Assembly (NCBI GenBank): GCA_007833815.1
Contig: CP033464.1
Span: 1,341,001-1,405,000 of the forward strand
From: Brevibacillus laterosporus
Lineage (GTDB): Bacteria; Bacillota; Bacilli; Brevibacillales; Brevibacillaceae
Reading direction: 5' to 3'
Length of the DNA: 64,000 nt
Positions 56,201 to 64,000 of this stretch are shown here, piece after piece (within the stretch, counting starts at the first letter, position 1; each line of letters starts with the position of its first letter). Position numbers and translations under genes: made by a program. The notes under the pieces are model-generated. The model saw only the letters and a list, made by a program, of their open reading frames with translations, searched no databases and was not told where the DNA came from.

Positions 56201-56229
56201 TTAACAGAATAAAATAATGGACGTATAAT
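56201..56229 (+). promoter_or_regulatory. Promoter of the kdp operon leader
   Basis: TTAACA (56201-56206) and TATAAT (56224-56229) with a 17-bp spacer; transcript would start near 56236, just before the riboswitch. Confidence 0.7.
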
Positions 56230-56235
56230 AAGACT

Positions 56236-56404
56236 CGTAAGCAACAGCATAACGGCCAAATCCCGAGGCATTCGGGAACGGAGGACCCACTTTTTACTGG
56301 GGTTAATTCTACAAGTTGTAGAAGGGATGAGTAACTCTTTCGCCATCCTACCCGTCAGCTAACTTCGTCGGCTAAAGCGAAGGAGGTCAATGAGACCACC
56401 TGTA
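56236..56404 (+). ncRNA. Cyclic di-AMP riboswitch (ydaO/yuaA type)
   Basis: The segments CATAACGGCCAAATCCCGA, GGAACGGAGGACCC, GGGGTTAATTCT, AGAAGGGATGAGTAACTCTTTC, CATCCTACCCGTCAGCTAA and TTCGTCGGCTAAAGCGAAGGAGG occur in the order and form of the ydaO consensus. These RNAs bind cyclic di-AMP and turn off downstream K+ uptake genes at high levels. Placed before kdp, it fits a negative feedback on potassium import. The expression platform lies right after (GGTC-AATGA-GACC hairpin and T-rich run at 56414-56428). Confidence 0.87.
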
Positions 56405-56819: not shown

Positions 56820-56927
56820 ATGGATATGGTTGCAATTTTACTAGTAGCAGGTGCATTTGGTCTGTTTTATGGAATGATGGCATTCTGCGATAAAGTGGTA
56901 ACAGAAGAAGGGAGAGAAAAGCGTTGA
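56820..56927 (+). CDS. Small membrane protein upstream of kdpF
   Basis: A 35-residue protein from ATG 56820, behind AGAGGAGG. It has one helix (MVAILLVAGAFGLFYGMMAF) followed by CDKVV and a charged tail (TEEGREKR). Short proteins with a helix ending in a Cys-Asp/Glu-Lys/Arg motif occur before kdpF in several kdp operons, as far as I recall; no name is known to me. Its TGA overlaps the TTG start of kdpF. Possible role: accessory subunit of the Kdp complex, unproven. Confidence 0.65.
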   Translation: MDMVAILLVAGAFGLFYGMMAFCDKVVTEEGREKR

Positions 56928-57001
56928 TTATACTCATGATCATCGTTGCAGGGGTTATCCTCTATCTCATTGATGCATTGATTCATCCTGAAAAGTATTA
57001 A
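56924..57001 (+). CDS. kdpF: K+-transporting ATPase subunit KdpF
   Basis: A 25-residue single-helix protein, TTG 56924 to TAA 57001: hydrophobic MIILMIIVAGVILYLID then ALIHPEKY, the usual LYxLxxPExF-type ending of KdpF, a small stabilising subunit of the KdpFABC complex. Translation is coupled to the upstream small gene by a TTGA overlap. kdpA follows 42 nt later. Confidence 0.82.
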   Translation: MIILMIIVAGVILYLIDALIHPEKY

Positions 57002-57043: not shown

Positions 57044-58717
57044 GTGGATCTGTTGCAAATTGCTGTAGTGTTAGGGATTTTGCTCATCCTGGCCATATTA
57101 TGTGGCCGTTACTTGGCGCAGGCCTTTTCATGGGAGGTCACCAAACTAGACCGAATATTTGGAGGGTTTGAACGATTGATATATAGAGCTTCTGGCATCC
57201 AAATAAAAGCAATGACATGGAAACAGTACGCAGGAGCAGTTTTACTTAGCAATTTAGTCATGTTTGTAATTGGGTATTTGATTGTGAGAATGCAAGGTTT
57301 CTTGCCGGGGAATCCCAGTAAGATTGAAGGCATGGAACCATTACTTGCTTTTAATACAGTAGCTAGTTTTTTAACAAATACCAACCTACAACATTATAGC
57401 GGGGAGTCAGGATTGTCCTACCTGTCCCAAATGACGGTTATTATCTATTTGATGTTTACTACCCCCGCTACTGGCATAGCTGTTGTGATGGCCTTTATGA
57501 GAGGAATTACAGGACAAAAGCAGATTGGAAACTTCTATGTAGATTTGATTCGAGCGCATACTCGTGTGTTATTACCATTGGCTGTGTTTGTTACCTTGCT
57601 GTTGGTAGCTCTAGGGGTGCCTCAAACCATGAGTCCAACAGTAACGGCTACTACGTTACAAGGAGCAGAACAACAAATCGCTCGTGGACCTGTGGCTTCC
57701 TTGGAATCAATTAAGCATATTGGCACAAACGGAGGTGGATTCTTCGGGGTTAACTCTTCGCATCCCTTTGAGAACCCTACACCTCTAACAAATGTTATTG
57801 AAATCTTATCTATGTTTCTCATCCCGGCCTCCTTACCGTTTACTTTTAGTGCTATGACACGCAATAAAAAGCAGGGCCTTATGATATTTGTTGCCATGTT
57901 TCTAATGTTCCTGACTTTCTTGACGATTGTGTATGTAGCAGAATCGAACGGAAATCCAGCGTTAGCACAAGCAGGCCTGTCACAGGCAAACGGTAGTATG
58001 GAGGGAAAAGAAGTACGCTTTGGTATTGCACAGTCGGCTCTGTTTACCGCAGTGACCACAGCAGCTACTACAGGAACAGTTAATAACATGCATGATACCT
58101 TAACGCCGATCGGTGGAATGGTTCCTTTAGCTCAAATGATGCTAAATTGCGTGTTTGGCGGCGAGGGTGTTGGCACAATGAACATTCTGATGTATGCCAT
58201 GATGGCCGTGTTCATTGCAGGATTAATGGTTGGTCGTACACCAGAATACTTGGGACGTAAGATTGAAAGTAAAGAGATGAAATTAATAGCTATTACTATT
58301 TTAATTCATCCTTTGATTATCCTAGCTCCATCTGCTATTGCTCTGGCTAGCGAGATGGGCACAAGCTCCATTTCTAATGCGGGCTTCCATGGTATCTCCC
58401 AAGTGGTGTATGAATTTACGTCTTCAGCCGCTAATAACGGTTCAGGATTTGAAGGCTTGGCAGACAACACACCATTCTGGAATATTTCCACAGGTCTAGT
58501 TATGTTATTTGGACGTTACTTTTCTATCATATTAATGCTTGCTGTAGCAGGCTCACTTATGATGAAAAAACCTGTACCGGAAACAATTGGTACTTTCCGC
58601 ACGGATAATACAGTATTTATGGGAATCTTGCTTGCCACTGTACTCATTGTGGGTGCGTTAACATTCTTCCCTGTGATTGCACTTGGTCCTGTTGCTGAGT
58701 GGCTGTCCATACGTTAA
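57044..58717 (+). CDS. kdpA: K+-transporting ATPase subunit KdpA
   Basis: The 557-residue channel-like, K+-translocating subunit of the KdpFABC pump. Selectivity-filter-type motifs are [19 protein letters not shown] near residue 110, [20 protein letters not shown] near 225, TTGTVNN region near 345 and [10 protein letters not shown] near 465. GTG 57044 has AGGAGGAAC upstream. Second structural gene in the operon. Confidence 0.95.
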
Positions 58718-58739
58718 TGAAGAAAAGGAGTCTTTCTCT

Positions 58740-60779
58740 ATGAGTAATCAACGAACATCCTTGGTCACCAAGGAGATAGTCTGGCAGGCGATCATCAATG
58801 CCTTCAAAAAATTAGATCCACGATTAATGATTAAAAATCCCGTCATGTTTGTGGTGGAAATAGGCTTTGTTATTACGCTATTTTTAAGCGTTATGCCAAG
58901 TGCTTTTGGTGGCGAGTCCAATGCCTTTTACAACAGTATCGTGAGCATCATTTTATTCGTAACCATCCTGTTTGCCAATTTTTCCGAGGCTTTGGCAGAA
59001 GGACGCGGTAAGGCACAGGCTGATAGTTTGAAAAAAAGCAAACAAGATATGAAAGCGAATCTGTTACAAAAAAATGGATTGATAAAAGTGGTCAATTCCA
59101 CAGAGCTACGCAAAGGTGACATAGTCATCATCAACACCAATGAGTTAATACCAAGTGATGGTGAAATTATTGAAGGAGTGGCATCCGTCGATGAGTCGGC
59201 CATTACGGGAGAATCAGCTCCAGTCATTAAAGAAGCAGGGGGAGATTTTAGCTCTGTTACTGGCGGGACTCGCGTGGTGAGTGACCGAATTACGGTGCGT
59301 GTAACCACAGATCCTGGGGAATCTTTCTTAGACCGAATGATCAGTTTGGTTGAAGGAGCGAAACGCCAAAAAACACCTAACGAGCTAGCTTTAAATACGC
59401 TATTGGTTAGCTTAACATTAATTTTTTTAATCGTGTGCACGACATTGATACCTATTGCTTCCTATGTAAACGTGGTGATTCCGGTCGCAACTTTGGTAGC
59501 TTTGCTGGTTTGCCTCATCCCAACGACCATTGGTGGATTGTTATCTGCCATTGGGATAGCTGGAATGGATCGGGTCACTCAATATAATGTAATTGCCATG
59601 TCAGGTAAAGCGGTCGAAGCAGCGGGTGATATTAATACCATCATCTTGGATAAGACGGGAACAATTACGTACGGAAACCGTATGGCCTCTGTAATCGTGG
59701 CGGTGGGGGGCATAAAGCTAGAAGAGTTATATCGGGCGGCTCTACACAGCTCCCTACATGACGAAACACCAGAGGGACGCTCCATTGTGGAACTAGCTAA
59801 AAAATTGGGAGTTCCTCAATCAGAATGGCAGATTTCAGGAACAGAAGGAGTGGAATTTAAAGCGGAAACCCGTATGAGTGGTACAAATTTTCCAAATGGT
59901 CGCATGGTAAGAAAAGGGGCCGTTGATGCAATTAAAAACTATGTTGTAGAAAGCGGTGGTCGGGTTCCTAGCGATTTGGAGAATACAGCGAATCAAATTG
60001 CTAGAGAAGGTGGTACTCCATTAGCGGTGGTAGATGATAATCGTGTACTGGGCGTCATTTATTTGAAAGATACAGTAAAGGCAGGCATGCGTGAGCGCTT
60101 TGAAGAGTTACGCCGTATGGGGATTAGGACTGTTATGTGTACGGGTGATAATCCATTAACAGCGGCTACCATTGCACGTGAAGCTGGTGTAGATGATTTT
60201 ATTGCGGAAGCGAAACCAGAGGATAAGATTGCGGTCATTCGTCAGGAACAGGCACAAGGAAAATTGGTAGCTATGTCAGGCGATGGTACCAATGACGCAC
60301 CTGCTTTGGCTCAAGCAGATGTGGGCTTGGCAATGAATAGCGGTACAATTGCCGCAAAAGAAGCAGCGAACATGGTAGATCTAGATTCTGATCCGACCAA
60401 AATCATTGAGGTAGTAGCTATAGGGAAACAGCTTCTCATGACTCGCGGAGCTCTTACTACCTTCAGCATCGCAAATGATATTGCGAAGTATTTTGCCATT
60501 ATCCCTGCGATGCTCATGGTAGCAATTCCTCAGATGCAAGCTTTGAACATCATGCAGCTAGCTACTCCACAGAGCGCAATTTTGTCAGCATTGCTGTTTA
60601 ACGCGATTATTATCCCGCTGTTAATACCGTTGGCAATGAAAGGTGTCAAATATACACCAATGAGTGCTACCAAGCTATTATCTCGCAATCTGTTTATTTA
60701 CGGATTGGGGGGTGTCATTGCTCCTTTTGTCGGTATTAAGCTGTTGGATATGCTTCTGGTGGTAGTTGGTTTGCACTAG
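58740..60779 (+). CDS. kdpB: K+-transporting ATPase ATP-binding subunit KdpB
   Basis: A 679-residue P-type ATPase (type IA) that powers K+ import. Phosphorylated Asp304 in [14 protein letters not shown] in [19 protein letters not shown] and [10 protein letters not shown] motifs are present. ATG 58740 follows AAAAGGAG; the frame extends upstream into kdpA but without protein-like sequence. It acts with KdpA, KdpC and KdpF in the plasma membrane. Confidence 0.96.
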
Positions 60780-60809: not shown

Positions 60810-61367
60810 ATGTTAAAAAATATACGCGTCAGTCTTGTGTTGCTACTGATCTGCGGCGTTATTTATCCCTTGCTCATGACGGGTATCGCGCAGGCTCTAA
60901 TGCCAATACAAGCAAATGGAAGTCTAATTACTGATGCAAACGGTAATGTAGTAGGATCGAAGCTGATTGGTCAAACGTTTACAGACCCTAAATACTTTTC
61001 TGGACGTGTTTCTTCTATAGAATATAATGCAGCTGGTTCAGGTTCTAATAACTATGCTCCTTCTAATCCAGAACTAATAGAACGAACCAAAAAAGATGTA
61101 GCGGCTTTCTTAGTTGCGAATCCTATTATTGTGCAAGCAGCAGTACCAGCTGACTTAGTAACAAACTCAGCTTCAGGACTTGATCCGCATATTACACCAG
61201 AAGCGGCTCGTGTTCAGGTGCCACGCATTGCAGCAGTACGCAATTTGACTATTGAGCAACTTAATCAGCTCATTAGTAAGCACACAGAAGATCGATCCTT
61301 GGGCTTGTTTGGTGAAAAACGAGTAAATGTATTGGAGCTAAACATAGCGTTGGATCAGGTGAAGTAA
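60810..61367 (+). CDS. kdpC: K+-transporting ATPase subunit KdpC
   Basis: A 185-residue subunit with one N-terminal helix (about 8-28; LVLLLICGVIYPLLMTGIAQAL) and an extracytoplasmic domain. Conserved are GSKLIGQTFTDPKYFSGRVS, SGLDPHITPEAARVQVPRIA and TEDRSLGLFGEKRVNVLELN. It supports K+ affinity and assembly of the pump. Its stop directly abuts the ATG of the KdpD-like gene. Confidence 0.95.
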   Translation: MLKNIRVSLVLLLICGVIYPLLMTGIAQALMPIQANGSLITDANGNVVGSKLIGQTFTDPKYFSGRVSSIEYNAAGSGSNNYAPSNPELIERTKKDVAAFLVANPIIVQAAVPADLVTNSASGLDPHITPEAARVQVPRIAAVRNLTIEQLNQLISKHTEDRSLGLFGEKRVNVLELNIALDQVK

Positions 61368-63737
61368 ATGGAAGACTTTCGCCGAAAAACGCCAGAGGAA
61401 ATCTTGCGCTCCATTTCGGAAATCCATAAAGGTCGCTTGCAAATTATTTTGGGTGCTGTGAGTGGCTCAGGAAAAACCTATCACATGCTGTTAGAAGGGC
61501 AACGTCTCCGAAAAAAAGGCTTGGATGTGGTTATTGGGGTCATTCGTACGCATGCAATGAATCAAGGGAAGAATCAAGAGAAGCTAGAGGGACTCGATGT
61601 AATACCTGCTATGGTCTGGTGTGATAAAGGTGTTCAGAGAGAGGACCTTGATGTCGAGGAGATCGTGAGACGTGATCCAGAGGTTGTCTTGGTAGATGAG
61701 TTGGCGCATCGTAATCGACCGGAAGCAATGCGCCGTACCCGAATCGAGGACGTACGTTATCTATTGGAACACAATATTAGTGTTATCACTACAGTAAATA
61801 TCTATGAGCTTGAGGGGATGAAAGGAATAGCCCAGCGATTAACGGGAGTACCCGTTCCTGTAGAAGATTGTGTAGCCAATGAGACTCTAGCCGAAGCAGA
61901 CGAGGTAAAGCTACTTGATGTGACACCGGAAGTAATTCTAAAAAGATTGCAAGAGGGGAGTATTTCCCCCAACTCGCCTAGTCAGGGAGAAGGATGGTCC
62001 AAACCTAAGTCAAAGCATCAACGTTTGTACCGCCATGATAATCTGGCTGTGCTAAGAGAATTAGCGCTACGATTTGTGGCAGGAGAAGTGAATGATGATT
62101 TAGATGAATATAGGGAACAGCAAGGAATACTTGGGCCTTCTGGGGCTAGTGAGCGAATTCTGGTTACTGTGCAATATCATTGGAATGGTTCGATCTTGAT
62201 TCGTCGTGGTCAACAGGTAGCCAAACGATTGGGAGCTGAGCTGGTCGTCGCTTGCTTTCGTGATAGCAAACAGGTGATGTCTAAGGAAGAGGCAACCTTT
62301 AAACGGTCTATGGTGACTTTAACGGAAAAAGTGGGGGGGAGCTTTGAAGAAGTCCCGCTATCTAAGGAAAGTGACGTTGCCAAAGAAATTGTGCGGCACG
62401 CGATGCAACGTAACATTACCCGTATCGTAATGGGGCAGTCCAAACGAAGCCGGTGGGAAGAAATTTTGCATGGCTCCATTATTAACAAGATTTTGCGCAA
62501 AAGCAAAAATACAGATGTCTTAATTGTGGCGGATCGTGCGGCGACAAGCGGGGGGCGAGTTCTTCCTGCTAAACGCCATCGCGGAATTGTTAGCCATCCT
62601 TTTCGCCGTCTTTCTGCTGAGGAGATGGAAAGGGAAATTAAGCGAATTAAGCGTGGAAAATTAAAAATCTATGTAGGTGCAGCTCCTGGTGTAGGAAAGA
62701 CGTACACGATGCTTCGTGAGGCGAATGAACTTTTACACAGTGGTATTGATGTTGTAATTGGACTATTGGAAACTCATGGACGAAAAGAGACCCACGAGCA
62801 AATAGATAAGCTGACTATTATCCCAAGAAAGGTGATTCCTTATAAGAATGTTCTTTTGGAAGAGATGGATACAGCGGCTATTATTAAACGCAATCCGGAA
62901 GTGGTTCTAGTGGATGAATTAGCCCATACCAATGTGCCCAATAGTCGATTTCTAAAAAGATATGAAGATGTCGAGAAAATTTTGCAAGCTGGCATTTCTG
63001 TCATTTCAACCATGAATATTCAGCATGTAGAGAGTTTGAATGACAGCGTTGAGCAAATAACAGGTATTCGAATACGGGAAACGGTTCCTGATCACATTCT
63101 ACATGAAGCAGATGAGATAGAACTGGTCGACATTGCACCAAGATCCTTACAAGAGAGGATGAGAGAAGGCAATATCTATGCCCTAGATAAAGTGGAGCAG
63201 TCATTGAATCACTTTTTTCAGATGGGAAATCTGATTGCATTACGAGAGCTCGCCTTGCGTGAAGTAGCGGATGATGTGGATGAGCGTCTGGAAGCTTGGG
63301 AGCGAAAAGGTGCGCTGCGTGGACCATGGCGAAAACAAGAAACCATTTTTGTCTGTGTAAATTTACGAAATGACAGTGAACGATTGATACGACGTGGATT
63401 TCGTATTGCTTATCGATTAAAGGCGGACTGGTATGTGGCGTATGTACAGGAGCATTACCCCCTTACCCAAGAGGAGGTTAGCTTGTTAGACAAACTTAGG
63501 TTATTAACGGAACGTATGGGTGGAGCCTTTGAAATATATCAGGTACAGGAACGAAGACAAATTTTTCGTGAATTAGTCATGCAGATGGATCGCAAAAATG
63601 TTACACAAGTCATCATCGGCCATTCTGCTCGGACGAGATGGGAAGAGATAAGAACGGGCTCTGTTTTACAAAAATTATTAAGGCAAATACGTCATATGGA
63701 TGTTCTCGTTGTTGCTGATCATAAGCCAGTTATGTAG
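61368..63737 (+). CDS. Kinase-less KdpD-like protein with two tandem KdpD sensor/Usp modules
   Basis: A 789-residue soluble protein made of two copies of the KdpD N-terminal half. Copy 1 (about 1-385): Walker A GAVSGSGKT at 29-37, VVLVDELAHRNRPEA, Usp-like domain from ILVTVQYHWNGS. Copy 2 (about 405-789): Walker A GAAPGVGKT at 437-445, VLVDELAHTNVPNSR, ISTMNIQHVESLND, Usp-like domain from TIFVCVNLRNDSERL. No membrane helices, HisKA or HATPase_c. Copy 1 is more diverged. Truncated KdpD proteins exist in Bacillota and the Usp part of KdpD binds cyclic di-AMP in Staphylococcus; the tandem form is unusual. Starts directly after kdpC. Confidence 0.85.
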   Translation: MEDFRRKTPEEILRSISEIHKGRLQIILGAVSGSGKTYHMLLEGQRLRKKGLDVVIGVIRTHAMNQGKNQEKLEGLDVIPAMVWCDKGVQREDLDVEEIVRRDPEVVLVDELAHRNRPEAMRRTRIEDVRYLLEHNISVITTVNIYELEGMKGIAQRLTGVPVPVEDCVANETLAEADEVKLLDVTPEVILKRLQEGSISPNSPSQGEGWSKPKSKHQRLYRHDNLAVLRELALRFVAGEVNDDLDEYREQQGILGPSGASERILVTVQYHWNGSILIRRGQQVAKRLGAELVVACFRDSKQVMSKEEATFKRSMVTLTEKVGGSFEEVPLSKESDVAKEIVRHAMQRNITRIVMGQSKRSRWEEILHGSIINKILRKSKNTDVLIVADRAATSGGRVLPAKRHRGIVSHPFRRLSAEEMEREIKRIKRGKLKIYVGAAPGVGKTYTMLREANELLHSGIDVVIGLLETHGRKETHEQIDKLTIIPRKVIPYKNVLLEEMDTAAIIKRNPEVVLVDELAHTNVPNSRFLKRYEDVEKILQAGISVISTMNIQHVESLNDSVEQITGIRIRETVPDHILHEADEIELVDIAPRSLQERMREGNIYALDKVEQSLNHFFQMGNLIALRELALREVADDVDERLEAWERKGALRGPWRKQETIFVCVNLRNDSERLIRRGFRIAYRLKADWYVAYVQEHYPLTQEEVSLLDKLRLLTERMGGAFEIYQVQERRQIFRELVMQMDRKNVTQVIIGHSARTRWEEIRTGSVLQKLLRQIRHMDVLVVADHKPVM

Positions 63738-63765: not shown

Positions 63766-64000
63766 ATGAAGAGTATGCTTATTGTGGGACGTGGAGAAGC
63801 TTTTTGTAACTTTGTTCAAATCGCTAGCCAACATGAGATCAATCGAAATTTGATGGATGGTTTGCAGATTGTTGCCTTTTATCGAGAATCAATGAGAAAT
63901 GACCAGATTCGAGAAGGGTTTCGTCTAGTGGCTACGCAAGGGTTTGCTCCTGACGCAACGGAACTTGCCTCTTATGAGCAGGTTTACCTGTTTCCAGATG
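63766..64000 (+). CDS. Unidentified gene, 3' end beyond the window
   Basis: Open frame from ATG 63766, with GGGGCGGGAGC upstream, running off the right edge; 78 residues are visible. It begins MKSMLIVGRGEAFCNFVQIA, with a VGRG glycine-rich stretch after a beta-strand, then alternating charged helices (SMRNDQIREGFRLVATQG). It follows the KdpD-like gene by 28 nt and is probably part of the same operon. I do not recognise the family; a KdpE- or sensor-like role cannot be judged from this part. Confidence 0.6.
   Translation, partial: MKSMLIVGRGEAFCNFVQIASQHEINRNLMDGLQIVAFYRESMRNDQIREGFRLVATQGFAPDATELASYEQVYLFPD

Follow-up and report, generated by a model that had tools for sequence, protein, structure and literature searches.

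A tandem short KdpD in the kdp operon of Brevibacillus laterosporus, a candidate pump-inhibiting serine kinase with a specialized first copy

According to the available text of Silberberg et al. (2024, PMC11018627), the KdpD domain of Escherichia coli acts as an atypical serine kinase whose target is KdpB Ser162, and this phosphorylation inhibits the pump. The kinase activity needs the Walker A motif, D109, E110 and the W39/R190 pair, E110 being essential. The same text reports that c-di-AMP stimulates a short KdpD/Usp protein of Deinococcus geothermalis, a link between c-di-AMP and Kdp shut-off through short KdpDs that was described only in that year. In Bacillus thuringiensis, a c-di-AMP riboswitch precedes kdpFABC and a truncated KdpD of 365 amino acids is encoded after it; deletion of this truncated kdpD left kdp transcription unchanged, as stated in the accessible part of the paper (PMC6488665). 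The short KdpD of Bacillus anthracis is reported, again in the part of the paper that was accessible, to bind c-di-AMP (PMC11302148). There, overexpression and inactivation of kdpD both raised some kdp transcripts under some conditions, with no significant change under another, and overexpression lowered intracellular c-di-AMP as well as changing kdp transcripts. Because altering kdpD changed some kdp transcripts in B. anthracis, short KdpDs may have an effect on transcription. We know of no structural mechanism by which short KdpDs couple c-di-AMP to the shut-off of the Kdp pump.

We analyzed a 64,000-nucleotide stretch of the Brevibacillus laterosporus genome (GCA_007833815.1, contig CP033464.1, positions 1,341,001 to 1,405,000), here called the window. 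It carries, on the forward strand at 61368..63737, a kdpD gene that consists of one unbroken open reading frame (ORF) of 789 codons, with its ATG at 61368 and its stop at 63737. Pfam matched KdpD (PF02702) twice and Usp (PF00582) twice in the protein, in the order KdpD-Usp-KdpD-Usp, and the starts of the two copies lie about 408 residues apart, as an earlier note on this DNA had read from the letters. The NCBIfam model NF038185 (KdpD-like non-kinase) also matched in two stretches, with 807.6 bits against a curated cutoff of 550. The halves aligned over 386 columns with 37.6% identity (E value of 2.6e-84).

No histidine-kinase or transmembrane family was among the seven Pfam families matched by the protein at E values up to 1, and it had neither the PF13493 membrane domain nor the histidine-kinase domains that mark a KdpDE sensor histidine kinase. 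No membrane segment is indicated either, since the highest 19-residue hydropathy mean was only 0.88. The earlier note had described the modules as being without kinase. This holds for the histidine kinase and the membrane part but is misleading for the KdpD domain, which is itself a serine kinase in the available text of PMC11018627. Compared with the full-length E. coli sensor histidine kinase, then, the tandem lacks the transmembrane, GAF and histidine-kinase domains and has the module doubled. Its nearest described relatives are the short KdpD/Usp serine kinases of the D. geothermalis type (NF038185). It shares with them the KdpD and Usp domains, the absence of transmembrane and histidine-kinase parts, a gene position after kdpC and, in its C copy, the catalytic and ATP-site residues; it differs in having two modules in one chain, of which the N copy has an altered and, across relatives, mostly Glu-less active site. 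With the locus of B. thuringiensis described in the available text of PMC6488665, it shares the riboswitch before the operon and the short KdpD after it, but the protein there has a single module.

The N-copy KdpD domain (61428..62090; PF02702, 210.6 bits) has an altered P-loop, GAVSGSGKT (61452..61478), and the Walker B motif VLVDELAHRN (61686..61715), with the Glu retained in this gene; at 61803..61817 it reads YELEG where the C copy has QHVES. It is followed by a Usp domain (PF00582; 62148..62534 by our own boundaries) with the conserved signature QYHWNGS. The C-copy KdpD domain (62649..63278; PF02702, 320.3 bits) has a canonical Walker A motif, GAAPGVGKT (62676..62702), and the Walker B motif VLVDELAHTN (62904..62933), in which the catalytic Glu codon is at 62916. 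Its Usp domain spans 63336..63722 (PF00582; again our own boundaries). The statement in the earlier note that copy 2 has canonical Walker motifs and copy 1 changed ones thus stands, with the correction that the motifs of copy 1 are not destroyed: GKT and DE are kept, and DELAHRN replaces DELAHTN. Overall, the serine-kinase residue set (Walker A, the Walker B Asp and Glu, the aromatic residue and Arg190) is present in both copies of the window protein, Tyr replacing Trp39.

An AlphaFold model of the whole chain, built from three sequences, was unusable (mean pLDDT of 39), and modeling the N half alone on six rows gave a mean pLDDT of 57. This half model still matched 2r8r, a crystal structure of KdpD (E value of 1.1e-18), and 7ji4, a KdpD Usp structure with bound c-di-AMP (E value of 2.8e-7), with a TM score on the target of 0.81 in both cases. 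The modeling supports the presence of both the KdpD and the Usp fold in the N half and is too coarse for finer detail.

All the other features of the operon lie on the same strand. A c-di-AMP riboswitch aptamer (ydaO/yuaA, RF00379) forms the kdp leader at 56244..56388, with an Rfam score of 72.6 bits against a gathering score of 38. Just upstream, at 56201..56229, is a sigma-70-like promoter, TTAACA and TATAAT separated by 17 nt, with 11 of 12 consensus matches; since the scan found 4 promoter-like sites in the region where 2.9 were expected, the match alone is weak evidence. Then come a kdpF-like peptide of 25 residues with a TTG start, recognized by its position and membrane-peptide look only (56924..57001), kdpA (57044..58717), which was identified as an ORF in the same gene order as in relatives, kdpB (58677..60779), whose true start is probably within the listed ORF, and kdpC (60810..61367), whose stop codon is followed immediately by the tandem gene. 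The serine of the KdpB TGES motif, equivalent to E. coli Ser162, is encoded at 59214 (TGESAP). Of 40 KdpB sequences compared, among them those of the window and of E. coli, 39 kept TGES, and the 40th is a fragment without this region. Two diadenylate cyclase genes are present in the window genome. A further ORF, at 56820-56927 (+), just 5′ of the kdpF-like peptide, would encode a membrane-like peptide of 35 residues.

A KdpD domain was found in 28 of 40 genomes of the window's family, in all 28 as a tandem in one ORF, and tandems also occurred in other Bacilli families among the matches listed. The distribution check proposed in the earlier note accordingly gave a conserved architecture that is not peculiar to the window genome. 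The same note had allowed that a corrected frameshift might split the gene in two; the single ORF is intact, and because an ORF with both modules recurs across 28 genomes of the family, a frameshift or assembly artifact is unlikely. As to whether such a fusion had been described, no title or abstract opening in the literature searched, whose reach stops short of most subscription papers, concerned a tandem KdpD, in agreement with the earlier note. The main text of PMC11018627, as far as available, makes no mention of a doubled or duplicated KdpD, of Brevibacillus or of Paenibacillus. What appears to be new here is a double short KdpD with a specialized, mostly Glu-less first copy.

The tandems fell into two kinds. 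Asymmetric tandems were found in the window's family f1, in f4, f3, f27 and f33, and in one f48 gene (the family and genome numbers are our own). The P-loop of their N copies departs from the canonical one and commonly reads GAVSGSGKTYHML or GAVSGSGKTYHLL; their C copies have the canonical GAAPGVGKTYTML or a sequence near it. Symmetric tandems, with both copies canonical, were found in f7, f16 and f48. In two genomes (G216 and G206; loci L061 and L062), the symmetric pair is encoded by two adjoining genes, which group in the tree with the N half and the C half of the fused protein. Next to the symmetric tandem at L060 and at L067 (G376) is an ORF of 662 or 653 amino acids that matches Usp and the membrane and histidine-kinase parts of KdpD, without the serine-kinase domain. 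A split kdpD in Alicyclobacillus acidocaldarius was reportedly described by Schleussinger and coworkers in 2006. There, as in the window tandem, the N-terminal part of KdpD is on a chain separate from the kinase. It may, at a guess, be the symmetric tandem type of the f7 genomes, which has both halves canonical, unlike the window type.

We compared residues, in E. coli KdpD numbering, across the 42 asymmetric tandem genes fetched; a first table of 32 of these genes was repeated on all 42. G36, K37, T38, D109 and R190 were retained in every N copy and every C copy. E110 was likewise retained in all 42 C copies, where either Tyr (38 genes) or Phe (4 genes) is the adenine-contact aromatic residue, but was missing from 36 of the 42 N copies (29 Gly, 2 Asp, 2 His and one each of Gln, Ser and Asn). 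The six N copies that keep it include that of the window gene, which could therefore be catalytic; the full pseudokinase-kinase residue pattern is seen in the other 36 genes and only partly in the window gene. Four further positions were replaced in all 42 N copies: K123 (40 Thr, 1 Asp and 1 Gly), Q145 (Tyr throughout), H146 (40 Glu and 2 Asp) and S/T114 (37 Arg and 5 other). The window N copy has Arg115, Thr124, Tyr146 and Glu147 at the positions equivalent to E. coli 114, 123, 145 and 146. These four positions are all canonical in 14 short nonfused KdpDs and in the symmetric tandems; among seven full-length KdpDs, K123 and Q145 are canonical in all seven and H146 and S/T114 in six.

The rate of nonsynonymous to synonymous change (dN/dS) was 0.040 to 0.092 for the N half in 12 of 15 asymmetric pairs, the other three being saturated, and 0.014 to 0.089 for the C half in 11 of the 15, often below the N half; the pairs share members. 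On these sequence comparisons, the N copy is under strong purifying selection and appears specialized rather than decaying. The low dN/dS, the kept ATP-site residues and the fixation of new residues together indicate that it is selected for a role other than canonical catalysis.

The best tree of the domains placed the N and C copies of the symmetric tandems together (support of 98.8) and, weakly, those of the asymmetric tandems (support of 68). This tree was built from 63 of 109 domain rows, with the long branches L052 and L058 left out; another domain tree took 106 of the 109. Separate origins of the two tandem types are thus favored, though not proven, since the AU tests did not reject holding together all N copies (P = 0.128) or all C copies (P = 0.056). 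A single origin of both types is disfavored by the best tree, although those tests leave it standing. Parsimony on a tree of 29 of the 42 tandem genes needed two changes between Glu and not-Glu at position 110, so the Glu of the window lineage may have been either kept or regained.

The transcriptional setting of the tandem varies. A c-di-AMP riboswitch lay 5′ of kdp in 28 of the 33 asymmetric-tandem genomes examined, a count made up of the window, G015, 15 of the 20 regions of one set and 11 more, with eight further asymmetric-tandem genomes standing outside it. Three of the five riboswitch-less genomes (G065, G184 and G302) encode a histidine kinase and KdpE next to kdp and retain the tandem. 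In the fourth (G118, locus L088), the tandem kdpD is intact and only fragments of kdpA and kdpB lie beside it, with extra kdpB and kdpC pieces nearby and no masked bases; the stretch fetched from the fifth (G178) includes pieces of two kdp clusters, and the leader may lie outside it. Three near-identical loci (G011, G022 and G034) have both the riboswitch and, nearby, a 575-amino-acid ORF with PF13493, which speaks against a strict either-or. PF13493, the KdpD-type membrane domain, was matched in 4 of the 28 genomes of the window's family that have the tandem (one of them weakly). It was also matched in 11 of 12 genomes with a symmetric tandem or split pair, and in none of nine with a single-module KdpD. 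That transcriptional control varies while the tandem stays argues for a posttranslational role of the tandem.

Neither Usp domain of the window protein has the c-di-AMP motif of Staphylococcus aureus, SXS-X20-FTAXY, given in the accessible part of PMC4686210. This motif was present in only one of the 109 domain sequences, a full-length KdpD, and the short KdpDs therefore lack it; nor was it seen in the short KdpD of Deinococcus radiodurans. Its absence is not decisive, because one short KdpD reportedly binds c-di-AMP and another responds to it, although their own sequences lay outside the motif check. The suggestion in the earlier note of an internal pseudodimer that binds c-di-AMP is plausible. 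Its suggestion that the protein acts on the pump agrees with inhibition of the pump by the KdpD domain kinase through a KdpB serine (PMC11018627, in its available text) and with the presence of the TGES serine in the KdpB of the window.

On balance we consider it likely that the tandem is a c-di-AMP-responsive serine kinase that inhibits the pump, with an N half that is an ATP-binding and mostly pseudokinase regulatory partner. In this proposal, a soluble, covalent two-module short KdpD would inhibit the KdpFABC potassium pump after translation. At high potassium, and hence high c-di-AMP, the C-terminal KdpD domain would use ATP to phosphorylate the TGES serine of KdpB and shut the pump, while the c-di-AMP riboswitch would halt further kdp transcription. 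The N-terminal module would be an ATP-binding partner rather than a spare kinase, its catalytic Glu lost or free to be lost, and would probably hold and regulate the C-terminal kinase in the manner of a pseudokinase. We infer that the published serine-kinase activity of the KdpD domain and the c-di-AMP stimulation of a single-module homolog both apply to the tandem and that its N half regulates its C half.

It is also conceivable, but in our judgment unlikely, that in the window lineage both halves are active serine kinases, fused for dose or as a fixed dimer, and that relatives lost the Glu in a lineage-specific way. The window N copy does retain GKT, D, E and R, and in the symmetric tandems and split pairs all 14 N copies and all 14 C copies keep the Glu, but the window N copy also has Arg115, Thr124, Tyr146 and Glu147 at positions that are canonical or nearly so in the other aligned KdpDs. 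Those same fixed residues, together with ATP-site residues invariant in 42 of 42 genes, make it very improbable that the tandem is a neutral duplication and fusion whose N half is decaying. Pfam does score the N half lower (193 to 235 bits, against 315 to 331 for the C half), but its dN/dS is near that of the C half and the tandem has been retained across several families.

A c-di-AMP receptor acting in transcription, either through an unlinked histidine kinase, as the earlier note had entertained, or by titrating c-di-AMP from the riboswitch, is improbable, though less so than decay. A KdpD-type histidine kinase and KdpE do adjoin tandems in some genomes, and the effects of overexpression in B. 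anthracis (PMC11302148, in its accessible part) count in its favor. Against this, a profile search of the window genome gave no PF13493 match, which leaves the unlinked kinase without a candidate of the KdpD type; the tandem is kept with either the riboswitch or KdpDE genes beside kdp; and the B. thuringiensis deletion, in the available text of PMC6488665, was without effect on kdp transcription.

The covalent unit with apparently split roles, as the pump-inhibiting reading has it, makes it possible to test if the kinase functions as a pair, which of the two Usp domains senses the signal and what role the ATP site has beyond catalysis. Eukaryotic pseudokinase-kinase tandems of the JAK type pair a catalytically altered copy of a duplicated kinase with an active copy; their fold is unrelated, and the likeness to the KdpD tandem is one of analogy only. 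A wider proposal, which we hold tentatively and at somewhat less than even confidence, is that a bacterial pseudokinase-kinase tandem regulates a P-type ATPase: the N module would bind ATP and a nucleotide signal without phosphorylating KdpB and would gate the C-terminal serine kinase through a fixed intramolecular interface, and covalent KdpD pairs would have arisen twice in the Bacilli, once asymmetric and once symmetric. If true, this would add a bacterial P-loop protein to the examples of the pseudokinase principle.

Directly 3′ of the tandem gene in the window's genus is a conserved small ORF of about 140 amino acids, whose window copy (63767-64000, +) is cut by the window end. It is also present at L034 (10399-10830) and L035 (10438-10872). 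In other members of the family (L083, L093, L094, L095 and L111) it lies 5′ of kdpA, and there are relatives in L073 and L104, with a weak one in L050. The ORF gave no significant Pfam or NCBIfam match (best E value of 0.06) and looks Rossmann-like by eye. Finally, six genomes (G032, G036, G083, G144, G286 and G326) had two c-di-AMP aptamers in tandem and in the same orientation ahead of the kdp operon, as did G170 and G090, both with a single-module KdpD. This double aptamer is possibly a two-step or sharper switch.
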